Shown here: piece by piece, positions 2,164 through 56,783 of the stretch
How the letters are laid out: each line of letters starts with the position of its first letter
Position numbering within the stretch: the stretch's first letter is position 1
Assembly (NCBI RefSeq): GCF_020103725.1
Contig: NZ_JAHXBG010000005.1
Span: forward strand, 434,001 to 498,000
From: Hyalangium gracile
GTDB lineage: Bacteria > Myxococcota > Myxococcia > Myxococcales > Myxococcaceae
DNA length: 64,000 bases
Direction: 5' to 3'
Made by a program: the position numbers and the translations under genes
Notes under the pieces: generated by a model
What the model was told of the DNA's origin: nothing
The model's input: only the letters and a program-made list of their open reading frames with translations
The model's database searches: none

Positions 2164-4677
2164 CTACTTCAGATCCAGGTAGTCCACCGAGTAGATCCAC
2201 CCGTTGGGGTGTGTCACGCCCACCAGGCAGAGGGTTCCGGTGCCAGTGGCGGAGATGGCGGTGGAGATGTTGGCCAGGCTGGGGCTGCTCCAGCCACCCG
2301 TCGCCGTGCTCAGCTTCAGTGTGCCGATGGTGGTGTTGTTGAACCTCAGCTGCGCCTCGCCATTGGGATAGGGAGCGCCCACGCGAGCGGTGGCGCTGGT
2401 GAAGCCCGTCAGGCTCACGTTGCTCCAGCAGATGGAGTCGCCGCCCTCGAAGGCCACGACCTTGCCGCCGCTGTCGCCACCGGCCTCGGCGAAGCAGCCC
2501 GTCAGCGTGGCGCTCTCCGCCTCCTTGCGCACGGAGGTGGGAGGCGTCGAGGTGCACTGGCCCGAGCTGTTGCAGGTGCTGCCCGAGGCGCACGTGCCGC
2601 AGGTGCCACCGCACCCATCGCTGCCACACGTCTTGCCCGAGCAGCTCGGGGTGCAGGTGCTCGTCGACGCGGTGCAGTGCCCCCAGCTCGCGCAGCTCGT
2701 CCCCGAGCGGCACGTGCCGCAGGAGCCGCCGCACCCATCGCTGCCACACGTCTTGCCCGTGCACTCGGGCTGGCACGTATTGGCCGTGGTGCCCAGGTAC
2801 ATGTCATCCACGTACAACTGGAGGTTGTTGTTGGCGCTGCCGCCCGCGTCGATCTCGAACTTGTAGGTGCCCGTGGCGGTGGGGGTGAAGTTGGGACCGG
2901 TGCACGTGGTCCAGCCGGTACCCACGTTGCAGTTGAAGCTGGCGACGGTGCCCCAGGGATCCTGCGCCTGGGCGATCTTGATGGGGAGCGTGCGCGCCGC
3001 GCTCGACTTCACGTCCACCTTCCACTTGTAGGTGGTGCCGGCGGTGAGCTGGAAGCCCTCCTGGCGGATCTGCACGCTGTAGGGCTGCCAGCCGCCATTG
3101 TCGATGCGCACCCACTGGACGAAGCCTCGGGTACCGCCCTCGTTGATGATGTCGGTGAGGCCCTGGCCTCCATCGAAGAAGAGATCGCTGCGGTGGTAGG
3201 TGTAGTCCTCGTTGAAGCCGCAGTTGCGGATGATGTTGTCACTCGTGCCGTCGCCATTGCTGTCCTGGCACGCCGCGCGAGAGGCCTGGGGGTAGCCCGA
3301 GTTGCGGTGGTACCAGCGCACATAGTCCACCTCCAGCTTGGCCTTGTCGCCGTGGGCGGCCCAGTCGATGTTGATGCACGAGCTGGGCGTCTCCTGGCAC
3401 TTGCCGCCCGAGCACGCCGCGCCATTGGCGCACTGCGCGCTGGAGGTGCACGACCGGCCGGACCAGCCCAGGCAGCCCAGCTCACCGCCCACCGCGTTGT
3501 TGAGGATGAGGTACATCGGCTGGCGGAACTCGGTCGCGTTGTCCCCGGTGGTGAAGGTCGCCACGGGCGCGCCGCCGTTCTGCGGCAGGTTGTCGATGTA
3601 GATCTTGAAGCCGTTCTCGTCCCAGAGGAAGCCCCAGGTGTGCCACTGGTGGTAGTCGATCGTCTTGCCCGGCCACTGCACGCGCGAGCCGCCCACGTCT
3701 CCGTCGCACTTGGCGTCACCGTGGTTGGGCCAGTCGCTGCACGCGTTGGCCTGCCAGCCACCCGGCGCCGCCGCCATCTCTCCGGCCTCGGGGTACTCGC
3801 GCCACAGCGCGTTGAAGCCCATGGCCTCGTTCGTGGGGAACAGGGCGCTGTTCTCACGGATCTGCGTGTACTCCATGATGTCGATCTCGCCCGTCATGGG
3901 CCAGCCGGCGCTGTCATCGCGGCCACCATTGGAGATGGCGCCGTTGGCCCCGAGCAGCCAGATGGCCGGCCACATGCCGCTGGGCGGCGTGGCCCCGGCG
4001 GGCAGCTCCGCGAAGGGCATGCGCGCGCGGAACTCGATGTAGCCGTAGCGGTACTCGACCTTCTCGTCGGTCTTGATGCGGCCCGAGGAGTACTGCATGC
4101 CATTGGCCGGCGCGTTGGCCAGGCCATTGAAGGGCGCGCACTCCTCGTGGTCATACACGCCGTTGCGGTTCTGGTCGTAGACGCAGTAGCCGGTGGCCGC
4201 GCAGGTGCCGTTGGTTCCACACTGGCTGCTGGCGGTACATTGCTGCCAGACGACACAGTCCAGCGGCTCCTTGCGAGCCAGCAGCGTCAGCTTGCCGTTC
4301 TCGACACAGTAGTTCCAGTTGTTGGGATGGGTGACACACTCCCGGTTGGTATAGGCCTGCTGCTCGTAGTTGACGCCCAGGTTCTCCTTGGTCCAGTTGG
4401 CGGTGTTGAGCAGGGACCTGGGCTGGCCCGCATTCAGGTTGCCACCAAAGTCATCCTCCCAGGTCAGCGTGAAGGGCTGCCCCGAGATGTTGAGCGTCCG
4501 GGAGCCCGTGGACTCCAGCGGCACCTCGCTCTCGACGGACGCGGAAGCTTCCGGCTCCTCCACCGCGACACAGCCTCCACCCACCAGAGCCAGGGCAAAG
4601 ACACCGCAGCCCAAGACGGCCTTCTTCCAGGCCGCACTGCTGTTCCGTCTCATCTCAGCGCACCACCTTCTGCTCAT
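2164..4677 (-). CDS. Lipoprotein glycoside hydrolase family 16 (beta-1,3-glucanase/laminarinase type)
   Basis: An 837-residue secreted enzyme expected to cleave internal beta-1,3 (or beta-1,3-1,4) glucan bonds. The ATG at 4677 was chosen because GGAGG lies 8 nt upstream; an ATG at 4683 is too close to it. The signal sequence ends in the lipobox LVGGGC (Cys36), so membrane anchoring is likely. The GH16 catalytic motif EIDIME gives nucleophile E264 and acid/base E269. A Cys-rich insertion lies at about residues 140-180, a CBM4/9-like jelly roll at about 490-640, two Cys-rich repeats (KTCGSDGCGG) at about 645-715, and a CBM6/35-like module ends the protein. The multi-module layout fits binding to insoluble glucan such as fungal wall. 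The exact substrate is inference. Confidence 0.9.
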   Translation of the reverse strand: MSRRWCAEMRRNSSAAWKKAVLGCGVFALALVGGGCVAVEEPEASASVESEVPLESTGSRTLNISGQPFTLTWEDDFGGNLNAGQPRSLLNTANWTKENLGVNYEQQAYTNRECVTHPNNWNYCVENGKLTLLARKEPLDCVVWQQCTASSQCGTNGTCAATGYCVYDQNRNGVYDHEECAPFNGLANAPANGMQYSSGRIKTDEKVEYRYGYIEFRARMPFAELPAGATPPSGMWPAIWLLGANGAISNGGRDDSAGWPMTGEIDIMEYTQIRENSALFPTNEAMGFNALWREYPEAGEMAAAPGGWQANACSDWPNHGDAKCDGDVGGSRVQWPGKTIDYHQWHTWGFLWDENGFKIYIDNLPQNGGAPVATFTTGDNATEFRQPMYLILNNAVGGELGCLGWSGRSCTSSAQCANGAACSGGKCQETPSSCINIDWAAHGDKAKLEVDYVRWYHRNSGYPQASRAACQDSNGDGTSDNIIRNCGFNEDYTYHRSDLFFDGGQGLTDIINEGGTRGFVQWVRIDNGGWQPYSVQIRQEGFQLTAGTTYKWKVDVKSSAARTLPIKIAQAQDPWGTVASFNCNVGTGWTTCTGPNFTPTATGTYKFEIDAGGSANNNLQLYVDDMYLGTTANTCQPECTGKTCGSDGCGGSCGTCRSGTSCASWGHCTASTSTCTPSCSGKTCGSDGCGGTCGTCASGSTCNSSGQCTSTPPTSVRKEAESATLTGCFAEAGGDSGGKVVAFEGGDSICWSNVSLTGFTSATARVGAPYPNGEAQLRFNNTTIGTLKLSTATGGWSSPSLANISTAISATGTGTLCLVGVTHPNGWIYSVDYLDLK

Positions 4678-52500: not shown

Positions 52501-53538
52501 ATGGCTACCCACTTCGATCCCAGCGCTGCCGCCTCCCCCGACTCCGGCATCTTCGGCCTGCCCCACTCGCCCGAGGAGGCCCACGTCGTCATCGTCCCCG
52601 TCCCCTTCGAGGCCACCACCAGCTATGGCGGCGGCACCTCCGAGGGCCCCGGCGCTGTCCTCCACGCCAGCCGCCAGGTGGACCTCTTCGACGTGGAGAC
52701 CGGTCGCGTCTACGAGCGCGGCATCGCCATGCTCCCCGAGTCCGAGGACCTGCGAGCCTGGAACACCCGCGCCAAGGAGCGCGCCCAGCTCGTCATCGAG
52801 GCCGGTGGCGTCCACCCCGGCCAGCCCGAGCTCCAGGCCGCCGCCGATGAGGTCAACGCGCTCTGCCAGAAGATGAATGACGTCGTCTACCGCACCACGA
52901 AGCACTGGCTCGACCAGGGCAAGCGCGTGGGCGCCGTGGGCGGAGACCACTCCATCTCCTACGGCATCATCCAGGCCCATGCCGAGAAGTACCCCGGCCT
53001 CGGCGTCCTCCACCTCGACGCGCACGCCGACCTGCGCAACGCCTACGAGGGCTTCACCTGGTCCCACGCCTCCATCATGTACAACGTGGTGCAGCGGCTG
53101 CCCGGCGTGAAGTCGCTCGTCCAGGTGGCCATCCGCGACATGAGCGAGGAGGAGCATCAGCTCATCCAGAACTCCACCGGCCGCGTCCGCGCCTACTTCG
53201 ACTCCACGCTCCAGCAGAAGCACTTCGACGGCGTGCCCTGGAACCGGCAGGTGGATGAGATCGTCTCCGACCTCCCCGAGCACGTGTACCTGTCCTTCGA
53301 CATCGATGGGCTGGATCCCGTCCTCTGCCCGCACACCGGCACGCCCGTGCCCGGCGGCCTCTCCTTCCCGCAGGCCACCGCCCTCATCTCCGGCGTCGTC
53401 CGCTCCGGGCGCACCATTGTCGGCTTCGATCTGACAGAGGTCGCCCCCGACCCCGATGGCGGCGAGTGGGATGGCAACGTGGGCGCCCGGCTGCTCTACA
53501 AGATGATCGGCTGGATGCTGAAGTCCCAGCGCGCCTGA
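52501..53538 (+). CDS. Agmatinase/arginase-family ureohydrolase
   Basis: 345 residues. The binuclear Mn2+ motifs are complete: GGDHSISYG, HLDAHADLRNAYEG and SFDIDGLDPVLCPHTGTPVPGG. The family hydrolyses agmatine to putrescine and urea, or related guanidino compounds. The N-terminal PFEATTSYGGGTSEGP fits the agmatinase-like branch. An insertion (LCQKMNDVVYRTTKHWLDQ region) makes it longer than E. coli SpeB. Agmatine as substrate is the likely but unproven choice. Confidence 0.88.
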   Translation: MATHFDPSAAASPDSGIFGLPHSPEEAHVVIVPVPFEATTSYGGGTSEGPGAVLHASRQVDLFDVETGRVYERGIAMLPESEDLRAWNTRAKERAQLVIEAGGVHPGQPELQAAADEVNALCQKMNDVVYRTTKHWLDQGKRVGAVGGDHSISYGIIQAHAEKYPGLGVLHLDAHADLRNAYEGFTWSHASIMYNVVQRLPGVKSLVQVAIRDMSEEEHQLIQNSTGRVRAYFDSTLQQKHFDGVPWNRQVDEIVSDLPEHVYLSFDIDGLDPVLCPHTGTPVPGGLSFPQATALISGVVRSGRTIVGFDLTEVAPDPDGGEWDGNVGARLLYKMIGWMLKSQRA

Positions 53539-53626: not shown

Positions 53627-54250
53627 CTACGAGGCTCCGTCCTTCGCCTTCACGAAGGGGCGCGAGTCCAGCGGGAGCTCCAGGGTGGAGGTCGTCCCCG
53701 CTCCCGCCGAGCTGATGACGTAGATGTGGCCTCCGTGCGCCTCGGCCATGCTCCTCACCGTCATCAGGCCGATTCCCCACCCGTGCTGCCCGCTCTGCTC
53801 GGCGGCCATGCTGCGGTGATACGGGCGGAAGAGCGCCTCCACATCCAAGGCCGGGAGTGGCTCGCCCTGATTGTGGACTGATTGCCATCCACCTCGCCCT
53901 GGGCGTCGCGAGTCGCATGCGTCCGGGATGCCCTGCGAGACGAACTCGGGCATCGCCTCACGCGCGGGCAGGCCCGGGTGTCACGGCCGAACAGCCGCAA
54001 GCTCGCCGCGCTCGTGAACTCGATGACGTGATCGGGCCCGCGGTAGATGGTGACGAAGGCAGGCGCCTGCCGGAAGAGCGCTTGAAGCCTGCTGCGCTAA
54101 GACTCCGCCTCCTCCCGACGGCCCGTCTCCCTTGCCAGCGCGACTTCCAGCTCACCAATCCGATCGTTCAGCCTCTTGCGCTCGTCTTCCTCGATGTTCC
54201 CCACGCCTTCATCCTCGTTGTCACCTCCAGCATCGGAGGCCTTCGACGCG
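53627..54250 (-). pseudogene. Decayed PAS-domain sensor histidine kinase
   Basis: Pieces of one kinase lie in order on the minus strand. A charged coiled-coil segment (EEDERKRLNDRIGELEVAL) ends at an in-frame TAG at 54097-54099. The same frame resumes with the PAS start LQALFRQAPAFVTIYRGPD, VIEFTSAASLRLFGR. A frameshift then joins REAMPEFVSQGIPD, and most of the PAS, HisKA and early ATPase domain is missing. The last part is the ATPase G boxes and end (VHNQGEPLPAL, GWGIGLMTVRSMAEAHGG, TTSTLELPL), closing at 53627. One stop, one frameshift and a large deletion make it inactive. Confidence 0.85.
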
Positions 54251-54260
54251 AAGCGGCGAG

Positions 54261-55283
54261 CTACTGTCGCGGTAGCAGCAAGCTGAAGGTCGAGCCCTTC
54301 TCCAGTCGGGACTCCACCGACAGCGCGCCACCGTGCAGGCGCGCCAGCTCCGAGGCGATGTACAGCCCCAGCCCCGTCCCTCCATCCGTCTGCCGCGCCT
54401 GGAATGGCGTGAAGAGGCGCGGCAGCTCCTGGTCCGAGAATCCCGGGCCCTCGTCCCTCACCCGCACCGTCACCAGCGACTGGGAGGACGTCAGCTCCAC
54501 GCGCACCTCGCCGCGCCCCTTCCCGTGGTGGACGGCGTTGGCCAGCAGCGCGTCGAACACCTGCCGGATGCGCTCGGGATCGAAGCGCAGCTCGACGGGC
54601 GCCCCGGGCACCGCCAGCCGGATGGGCACCTCCGGCGCCAGCGACTGCCAGGACTCCACCACCTGGCGCAGGTGCGGCGAGAGATCCTCCGCCACCGGCT
54701 GCAGCGCCACGCTCCCCGCCGCCAGCCTCGCCGCGTCCTGGAGGCTCCGCGTGAGGAACTCCATGGAGCGCAGCTGCGCCCCCAGCACGTCCAGCGTCTG
54801 CCGGTCCACCGCCGGAGCCGACTGCAGCCGCTGGAGCTGCTCGCGCGCCGTCGCCAGCGGCCCCTGGAGCGTCTGCGACACCCAGTGGCCCAGCGCCTCC
54901 ACCGGCGAGGCGTCCGGCGCCGGGCTCTTCTCCGGCGTCTTCTCGAGCGACTGACGGATGAGCGACTCGAAGTCGGTGATCTCGAACGGCTTGTGCAGGA
55001 AGGCCGAGGCCTCCGGGGCCCCCTGAGGCAGCACCGCGCTCAGGAGGATCACCGGCACATCCTTGAGGATCTCATCGCTCCGCAGCCGGCGGCACAGCTC
55101 CACGCCGCTCAGCCGAGGCATCACGTGGTCCGTCACCACCAGGTGCGGCCGCCGGGACCGAGCCAGCCCCAGCGCCTCCTCACCATCCCGCGCCTGGAGC
55201 ACGTCGTGCCCCAGATCCTCGACGACCTGGCTCAGAACCTCGAGCACCGCAGGCTCATCGTCCGCCACCAGGACGAGACTCAT
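54261..55283 (-). CDS. Response regulator-histidine kinase hybrid lacking the H-box histidine
   Basis: 340 residues; GAGGAG 7 nt before ATG 55283. A receiver domain (1-115) has D52 in VVTDHVMP and K98 in FLHKPF. A HisKA-like helix pair follows (131-200), but where S-H-E-L-x-x-P is expected the sequence is SQTLQGPL, with Gln137 in place of His. The ATPase domain (about 215-340) keeps VRDEGPGFSD and GTGLGLYIASELARLHGG. It may bind ATP without autophosphorylation on His, or use nearby His133. Next to it lies a decayed kinase gene. Confidence 0.88.
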   Translation of the reverse strand: MSLVLVADDEPAVLEVLSQVVEDLGHDVLQARDGEEALGLARSRRPHLVVTDHVMPRLSGVELCRRLRSDEILKDVPVILLSAVLPQGAPEASAFLHKPFEITDFESLIRQSLEKTPEKSPAPDASPVEALGHWVSQTLQGPLATAREQLQRLQSAPAVDRQTLDVLGAQLRSMEFLTRSLQDAARLAAGSVALQPVAEDLSPHLRQVVESWQSLAPEVPIRLAVPGAPVELRFDPERIRQVFDALLANAVHHGKGRGEVRVELTSSQSLVTVRVRDEGPGFSDQELPRLFTPFQARQTDGGTGLGLYIASELARLHGGALSVESRLEKGSTFSLLLPRQ

Positions 55284-55451: not shown

Positions 55452-56783
55452 ATGAGGGCCGCAGGTATGAAATGGTGGTTTCTGACGGGGCTGCTGCTGG
55501 CCTCCAGCGTCCAGGCGGACCTGGCGCGCCGCCGGGACGCCATCGTGGAGGTGGTCCAGAAGGTGTCTCCGGCCGTCGTCTATATCGGCACGGAGCAGGA
55601 GGTGGAGTCGCGCTTCCGCCGCGGCGGGCGCTCCTTCCTGGAGGACTTCTTCGGCGGCGGCCAGCAGGAGCGACGGCGGGTGCAGGGGCTCGGCAGCGGC
55701 GTCATCGTCGACGCGGCCGGCACCATCCTCACCAATGATCACGTCATCCGCGGCGCCTCCGCCATCCACGTCGTGCTCGCGGATGGACGCACGCTGGAGG
55801 CCGAGGTGCTCGGCAGCGACTCCACGAATGATCTGGCGGTGCTGCGGGTGAGCTCCAAGGAGCCGCTGCCCACCGCGAAGCTGGGCACGAGCGGCGATCT
55901 GATGATCGGCGAGACGGTGATCGCCATCGGCAGCCCGTTCGGTCTGTCCAAGACGGTGACGGCGGGCGTGGTGTCAGCCACCGGCCGCACGTTCCGCGCC
56001 GAGGATGGCACGGTCTACAACGACTTCGTCCAGACGGACGCGGCCATCAACCCCGGCAACTCGGGCGGCCCGCTGCTCAACGTGGACGGAGAGATCATCG
56101 GCATCAACACGGCCATCTTCGCCAGCGCCCAGGGCATCGGCTTCGCCATCCCCGCGGACAAGGTGCGGCGCATCGTCGAGGAGCTCACGCGCTTCGGGAA
56201 GGTCCGCCCCGCATGGGTGGGCATCGACGCGGTGGATCTGCCCAGCCACATCGCCGCGCAGCTCGGGTGGGATCGCTCGTACGGCGCCCTGGTGGCCGGC
56301 GTGGAGCCCGGCAGCCCGGCCGAGCAGGCGGGGGTCCGCCGGGGCGACGTGGTGGCCGAGATGGGCGGCTCCCGCATCTCGGACGCGGACGACTTCGACA
56401 CCCGCGTGCGCGGCTATCCCGCGCGCTCCGCCTTCCCGCTCGTCCTCTTCCGGGAGGGGGGCCTGCGCACACTCCAGGTCACTCCGGTCGAGTTCCCTCC
56501 CCGACTCGTCGAGTCCCTGGCCTGGGAGCGACTAGGACTCAGAGTGAAGGAGGCCCGGGGCGCCATGGCCATCTCGGGCGTACGGCCTGGCTCGGCGGCG
56601 CAGGAGATCGGCCTGGAGCCGGGGGACGTCATCCTGAAGGTAAACAACCAGCCAGTCGCCAACTCGGATGCCTTCCGGGAGGCCCTTCTGACGGCGAGAC
56701 GGGGACGTAGCGTATTGTTGCTCGTCCGCCGAGGCCGGTACGGGTACCACATCACCCTCCCGTTCCAGGGCCAACGCCTCTAG
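55452..56783 (+). CDS. HtrA/DegP-family serine protease with two PDZ domains
   Basis: 443 residues; GGGAGGTAAGGA precedes the ATG (an in-frame ATG at 55467 is also possible). A signal peptide (WWFLTGLLLASSVQA) sends it to the periplasm. The catalytic triad is H97 (LTNDHV), D127 (STNDLAVL) and S204 (PGNSGG). PDZ domains lie at about 255-345 and 365-440. It would degrade or refold damaged envelope proteins. The 12-nt gap to the pseudokinase gene suggests an operon. Confidence 0.93.
   Translation: MRAAGMKWWFLTGLLLASSVQADLARRRDAIVEVVQKVSPAVVYIGTEQEVESRFRRGGRSFLEDFFGGGQQERRRVQGLGSGVIVDAAGTILTNDHVIRGASAIHVVLADGRTLEAEVLGSDSTNDLAVLRVSSKEPLPTAKLGTSGDLMIGETVIAIGSPFGLSKTVTAGVVSATGRTFRAEDGTVYNDFVQTDAAINPGNSGGPLLNVDGEIIGINTAIFASAQGIGFAIPADKVRRIVEELTRFGKVRPAWVGIDAVDLPSHIAAQLGWDRSYGALVAGVEPGSPAEQAGVRRGDVVAEMGGSRISDADDFDTRVRGYPARSAFPLVLFREGGLRTLQVTPVEFPPRLVESLAWERLGLRVKEARGAMAISGVRPGSAAQEIGLEPGDVILKVNNQPVANSDAFREALLTARRGRSVLLLVRRGRYGYHITLPFQGQRL

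Follow-up and report, generated by a model that had tools for sequence, protein, structure and literature searches.

The reading frame at 54261–55283 on the minus strand of the window (the whole stretch of DNA analyzed here, 64,000 nucleotides long) encodes a protein that probably derives from a receiver-first histidine kinase (Rec-HK), is kinase-dead and today acts as a response regulator, a reading to which we assign a probability of about 0.55. Another kinase or an Hpt protein would phosphorylate Asp52 of its receiver in trans, via a nearly invariant face formed by alpha1 and beta5-alpha5, and this phosphorylation would alter either the dimerization of the DHp-like hairpin or its docking on a target. 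The former kinase body would thus serve as the output module, and its catalytic half would be dispensable for the response-regulator role. Comparisons across the ortholog family point to the receiver as the working part of the protein. The components of the ORF and its two neighboring genes are as follows.

54261..55283, minus strand: whole ORF, encoding a receiver, a degenerate DHp and a CA domain (340 aa; ATG at 55283, stop codon ending at 54261)
54969..55274, minus strand: receiver domain, residues 4–105, with the acidic pocket and phospho-acceptor Asp52 intact (Pfam Response_reg; family comparison)
55128..55130, minus strand: codon of receiver Asp52
54717..54905, minus strand: DHp-like two-helix hairpin, residues 127–189 (helices 127–154 and 161–189 in the model; HisKA below cutoff)
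54873..54875, minus strand: Gln137 codon CAG, at the phospho-His position (codon read; ortholog alignment)
54267..54581, minus strand: CA (HATPase_c) domain, residues 235–339 (Pfam HATPase_c)
54537..54539, minus strand: N-box Asn249 (Asn in 39 of 54 full-length orthologs)
54441..54455, minus strand: G1 box DEGPG, residues 277–281 (alignment)
54363..54380, minus strand: G2 box GTGLGL, residues 302–307 (alignment)
55452..56783, plus strand: HtrA-like protease gene, divergent neighbor (named from its own sequence; conserved context)
52501..53538, plus strand: arginase-like gene, convergent neighbor (named from its own sequence; conserved context)

Domain composition and genomic context

Pfam recognizes the two outer domains clearly, Response_reg at residues 4–105 (68.0 bits against a cutoff of 30.2) and HATPase_c at residues 235–339 (90.9 bits, cutoff 26.4), and gives a weak HisKA match at residues 136–190 (15.8 bits, below the cutoff of 26.9). 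An earlier note on this DNA had proposed structure prediction as a check, and the AlphaFold model returns a receiver, a DHp-like two-helix hairpin (127–154 and 161–189) and a CA fold, with a mean pLDDT of 77.1 and a pTM of 0.57 from 11 rows; part of the receiver (85–103) falls below 50, and the linker between Rec and DHp (approximately 115–126) is short and of low pLDDT. A histidine-kinase fold of DHp plus CA is thus indicated by the HATPase_c score, the model and matches in the PDB, with HisKA remaining weak. The protein keeps N249, D277-x-G279-x-G281 of G1 and G304-x-G306 of G2, and its receiver residues D8, D9, D52, S82 and K98 are all present, in agreement with the intact ATP-binding boxes and receiver Asp described by the earlier note. 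The ORF lies at the coordinates given there, on the minus strand. The same note regarded the receiver-first order as notable, but this is not a novelty: Rec-DHp-CA proteins constitute a known class, the Rec-controlled histidine kinases with LvrB as prototype, described as 'frequently found' (PMC13269768), and several matches within this same genome span both receiver and kinase.

Family counts rest on matches at E <= 1e-40 in 96 genomes from the window organism's family. Matches are present in 65 genomes and comprise 54 full-length orthologs, nine shortened orthologs, one broken copy (in genome G015) and one genome with a paralog only (G095); counts over 63 intact orthologs combine the full-length and shortened forms, the broken copy having been dropped before counting. 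Hyalangium versicolor has an 85% identical ortholog (L175), Myxococcus xanthus AM003 carries one (L173), and the shortened form occurs in M. eversor (L177) and M. llanfairpwllgwyngyllgogerychwyrndrobwllllantysiliogogogochensis (L176), among others. A record titled Comamonas sp. KCTC 72670 (BNCN01000007.1; L187) contains a 64% identical ortholog, and its name looks wrong. A scan of genome contigs, of which 80 of 167 confirmed places were kept, hit mostly distant receivers and supplied organism names and rows for structure prediction. Our literature search, which covered few subscription journals, found no publications on this receiver-kinase ortholog family.

We compared the surroundings of all 64 ortholog places. 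At 60 of them the ORF occurs together with both the arginase-like and the HtrA-like gene, and it is always oriented opposite to these two neighbors. The exceptions lack either the arginase-like gene (L087, L092, L094) or the HtrA-like gene (L113). The start of the ORF is 131–269 bp from the HtrA-like start in 59 of the 60 places (1.5 kb in L112), and the arginase-like gene and the end of the ORF are separated by a gap of no more than 152 bp in 51 places and of about 0.7–2.9 kb in nine, the window included. In the window this gap of approximately 0.7 kb (53627–54240, minus strand) seems by eye to hold scrambled histidine-kinase pieces, with a start resembling PAS and an end resembling CA that lie in different frames and are interrupted by stops. 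We treat the neighboring genes only as conserved context of the ORF.

In three genomes (G002, G088 and G095; L155, L156 and L157) the arginase-like and HtrA-like genes are closed up to about 40–110 bp apart, and no ortholog was found, indicating that the gene is not essential everywhere. The broken ortholog of G015 (L113) has a receiver match at contig position 3644 followed by stop codons, and its kinase body is not recognized. Searching the stretch beside the HtrA-like gene in 16 ortholog-less genomes with seven family proteins at E 1e-3 gave no match; some of these stretches are short, and 11 of the 16 also contained the arginase-like gene. Several loci without the ORF (L158, L160, L161, L164, L166, L167 and L168) have a conserved protein of about 220 residues between the same arginase-like and HtrA-like neighbors, with a common stretch around LNALTG..GDE.GK.

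Loss of the phospho-accepting histidine and of the ATP-binding boxes

The H-box region of the window protein reads ALGHWVSQTLQGPL, and the phospho-His column holds Gln137. The earlier note had reported this substitution, and both the codon and the alignment bear it out: His is missing at this site in 62 of the 63 intact orthologs, compared with His in all 16 of the paralogs sampled (16 fetched out of 46 listed). The residues found are Q (28), R (26), K (3), E (3), A (1), N (1) and H (1). A sequencing error or a mutation in a single strain is ruled out by the family-wide absence. The sole His-bearing ortholog (L110, in G022) has Ser in place of the N-box Asn and a broken G1, and we favor the response-regulator reading in part because His is lost in 62 of 63 and the one exception has neither an N box nor G1. 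H, N, G1 and G2 are found together in none of the 54 full-length orthologs versus 16/16 paralogs. Among other kinase loci in the same genome, the H-box His is present in 40 of 40 sampled (35 recognized by pattern, five by eye); these were chosen out of 151 non-self matches for alignments that extend close to the H box, such that kinases with an unrecognizable H box could be missed.

The archaeal kinase MA4377 offers a precedent for exactly this change, as its H497Q form is reported to keep ATP binding while autokinase activity is abolished (PMC11784639), which further supports the response-regulator reading. Autokinase activity of the window protein and its family appears unlikely, and the earlier note's suggestion of a pseudo-histidine kinase is supported by the sequences, with His loss extending throughout the family and nine relatives missing the greater part of CA. 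A biological role without catalysis may be read, indirectly, from the conservation of a family that lacks catalytic residues. That note had also pointed to a His133 outside the usual position, and this residue indeed lies one helical turn ahead of site 137, but it occurs in just nine of the 63 orthologs and was rejected as a substitute phospho-site. Phosphorylation of another His conserved in the subfamily was named there as a way in which the claim might fail; outside the receiver, none of the His columns is shared by every one of the 54 full-length orthologs, the best being H317 in the CA domain (47/54).

Thirteen of the 54 full-length orthologs, the window protein included, retain N, G1 and G2 without the His, and ATP binding may still matter in these. 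This invites the proposal of a half-active kinase, in which the window protein, through its CA domain, would phosphorylate a partner kinase such as the close paralog on its His within a heterodimer. We consider this improbable, since one or more of N, G1 and G2 is gone from the other 41 full-length orthologs, and the nine shortened ones lack most of CA. The paralog is no strict companion either: at E <= 1e-40, a cutoff that diverged paralogs may fail to reach, it is found in 45 of 63 ortholog-bearing genomes and in three of the nine with the shortened form, and on this evidence the close paralog was dismissed as an obligate partner.

A phosphatase role, also raised by the earlier note, fares worse. 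The HisKA phosphatase motif is given as E/DxxT/N (PMC11502775), and in all 63 orthologs the +1 position (138) is never acidic and the +4 position (141) is never Thr or Asn, whereas the paralogs have E in 16/16 and T in 16/16. The motif's absence disfavors phosphatase activity, which is unlikely for the family, and the proposal that the protein is an active phosphatase for another regulator, which has nothing more in its favor than the frequent bifunctionality of kinases in general, has hardly any probability.

Excision of the catalytic domain and constraint on the receiver

Nine genomes of the Myxococcus group (genus code g38) encode a form of 208–211 aa that has an in-frame loss of about residues 177–308 (approximately 130 residues and most of the CA domain), joined to the last part of CA. 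The nine form a single clade with a support of 100, and their mean identity is 94% in the receiver and 82% in the remaining hairpin. AlphaFold models one of the nine as a receiver (mostly above 90 pLDDT), a hairpin (131–154 and 161–186) and a disordered tail, with a mean pLDDT of 75.9 (five models, 52.5–75.9; 7 rows). Both the in-frame removal of CA from a clade whose receivers are nonetheless about 94% identical, and the modeled receiver-plus-hairpin architecture, argue for the response-regulator reading.

The receiver is also the best-conserved part of the family. D8, D9, D52, S82 and K98 are invariant in 63/63 orthologs, as expected of a phosphorylatable receiver, and mean identities for receiver, DHp and CA are 82, 53 and 55% among full-length orthologs versus 71, 72 and 65% among paralogs. 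Pooled dN/dS values (calculated in Nei-Gojobori style with our own script) are 0.067 for the receiver, 0.35 for the linker (111–127), 0.26 for DHp and 0.28 for CA in 13 close ortholog pairs; 0.078, 0.48 and 0.21 for receiver, linker and DHp in four shortened pairs; and 0.23, 0.80, 0.23 and 0.22 for the four parts in five paralog pairs. Constraint on the receiver is therefore about threefold stronger than in the paralogs and that on the kinase body about equal, and the stronger constraint on the receiver (by identity and by its dN/dS of 0.067) than on DHp and CA is a further reason to favor a response regulator. One pair (L070/L071, from G001 and G003) is an outlier with a CA dN/dS of 3.1 at a dS of 0.01, where there is almost no synonymous change, and a DHp value of 0.84. 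In both of these full-length orthologs a short internal deletion has taken out the F-box region that follows G1.

Within the receiver, alpha1 is the most conserved helix (96% identical in the 63 orthologs versus 67% in paralogs) and the beta5-alpha5 loop (KPFE, before alpha5) the most conserved loop (100% versus 89%). This face is where kinases and Hpt proteins dock, and its conservation beyond that of the paralogs supports the response-regulator reading, although the protein's own hairpin could use it too. A counterpoint is that the hairpin diverges more than the receiver, which makes a conserved output surface on it less sure; W134, A146 and L153 are invariant in 63/63 orthologs, but these are also what a helical core needs. 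A second counterpoint is that purifying selection still acts on the kinase body, at a dN/dS well below 1, even though nine species dropped the CA part.

Two other explanations bear on this pattern of constraint. The protein could be a phosphate sink or competitor, whose receiver would take phosphate away from a kinase that also serves another response regulator, or compete for that kinase, with the remainder of the protein left as no more than a stabilizing remnant. The strong conservation of the receiver in identity, dN/dS and the alpha1/beta5-alpha5 face would suit this, and the single-domain receiver DifD is described as a phosphate sink in M. xanthus (PMC12802240), but a pure sink has no need of the hairpin, which is kept at a dN/dS of about 0.21–0.26, the shortened clade included, and we regard a sink as unlikely. 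Much less probable still is a decaying gene heading for loss. The broken G015 copy, the three closed-up losses and the progressive loss of boxes all lean that way, but 63 copies are intact, mostly at one syntenic place, and the receiver dN/dS of 0.067 and the invariance of every receiver catalytic residue also speak against decay.

Orthologs and paralogs fall on opposite sides of a fully supported branch in the tree, which is drawn rooted on the paralogs; one long-branched member (L112, from G069, with Gln at 137) is of unsure placement relative to this root. The simplest reading would be one His loss before the family spread, later drift at 137 and one CA excision. More tentatively, and with the odds somewhat against it, the family may record a stepwise conversion of sensor kinase to response regulator in living species, in which loss of the His came first, erosion of the ATP boxes second and excision of most of CA third, as the receiver tightened under selection and the dimerization hairpin became an output domain (a pseudo-DHp). 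We found no description of a pseudo-DHp as response-regulator output in the literature searched.

Comparison with known kinases and pseudokinases

The published dead histidine kinases that we came across are for the most part isolated examples. The present case is a whole orthologous family, with Myxococcus xanthus AM003 among its members, in which graded loss of catalysis goes together with a closely preserved receiver and a naturally occurring CA deletion. Whether a kinase body can be reused as a receiver output, and which part is needed, is thus testable in a genetically tractable bacterium.

Among the top 50 Foldseek matches in the PDB the best are active kinases (HK853), with LvrB at rank 3 and DivL at rank 23; the sequence and fold comparisons brought up DivL and RetS among their matches. 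DivL of Caulobacter is a pseudo-histidine kinase with Tyr at the site, described as not needing kinase activity (PMC4211667), and RocA of group A Streptococcus is described as a dead kinase acting on another kinase (PMC7028121). These are precedents for an allosteric partner, a role also raised by the earlier note; the dead DHp-CA body would switch a kinase or a phosphorylated regulator by docking on it, with the receiver tuning the effect. We think this doubtful, at slightly lower odds than the sink, because most of CA is gone in 9/63 orthologs, seven different residues occur at site 137 and conservation is lower in the kinase body than in the receiver. DivL (PDB 4q20) shares the histidine-kinase fold and a non-His residue at the phospho-site, but it has PAS input and Tyr, whereas the window family has an N-terminal receiver, Tyr in 0/63 and one clade without the CA domain; Pfam finds no PAS domain before the kinase core of the window protein and a receiver instead.

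RocA, together with a laboratory-evolved, CA-less frameshift form of ChrS that still acts on another kinase (PMC9491836), resembles the window family in that a dead or CA-less kinase has a remaining role on another kinase. RocA, however, is a membrane-linked accessory with transmembrane domains and the ChrS form is laboratory-evolved, and the available text of these papers describes no receiver in either.

The closest counterparts in architecture are LvrB and the family's own paralogs. LvrB (PDB 8vc9) matches the window protein by sequence and fold, with the same Rec-DHp-CA order and a receiver phospho-site, but it is described as an active kinase that has its His and a coiled coil on which Rec phosphorylation acts (PMC13269768), whereas the window family has lost the His family-wide and has a short, low-confidence linker; of the features of an active Rec-HK of LvrB type, the window protein retains the domain order and the receiver Asp, and the phosphorylatable DHp His is missing. 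The His-bearing paralogs (L123–L138) are 40–46% identical to the window protein, with the same architecture and a close receiver, but differ in that H, N, G1, G2 and the phosphatase motif are intact in 16/16 sampled.
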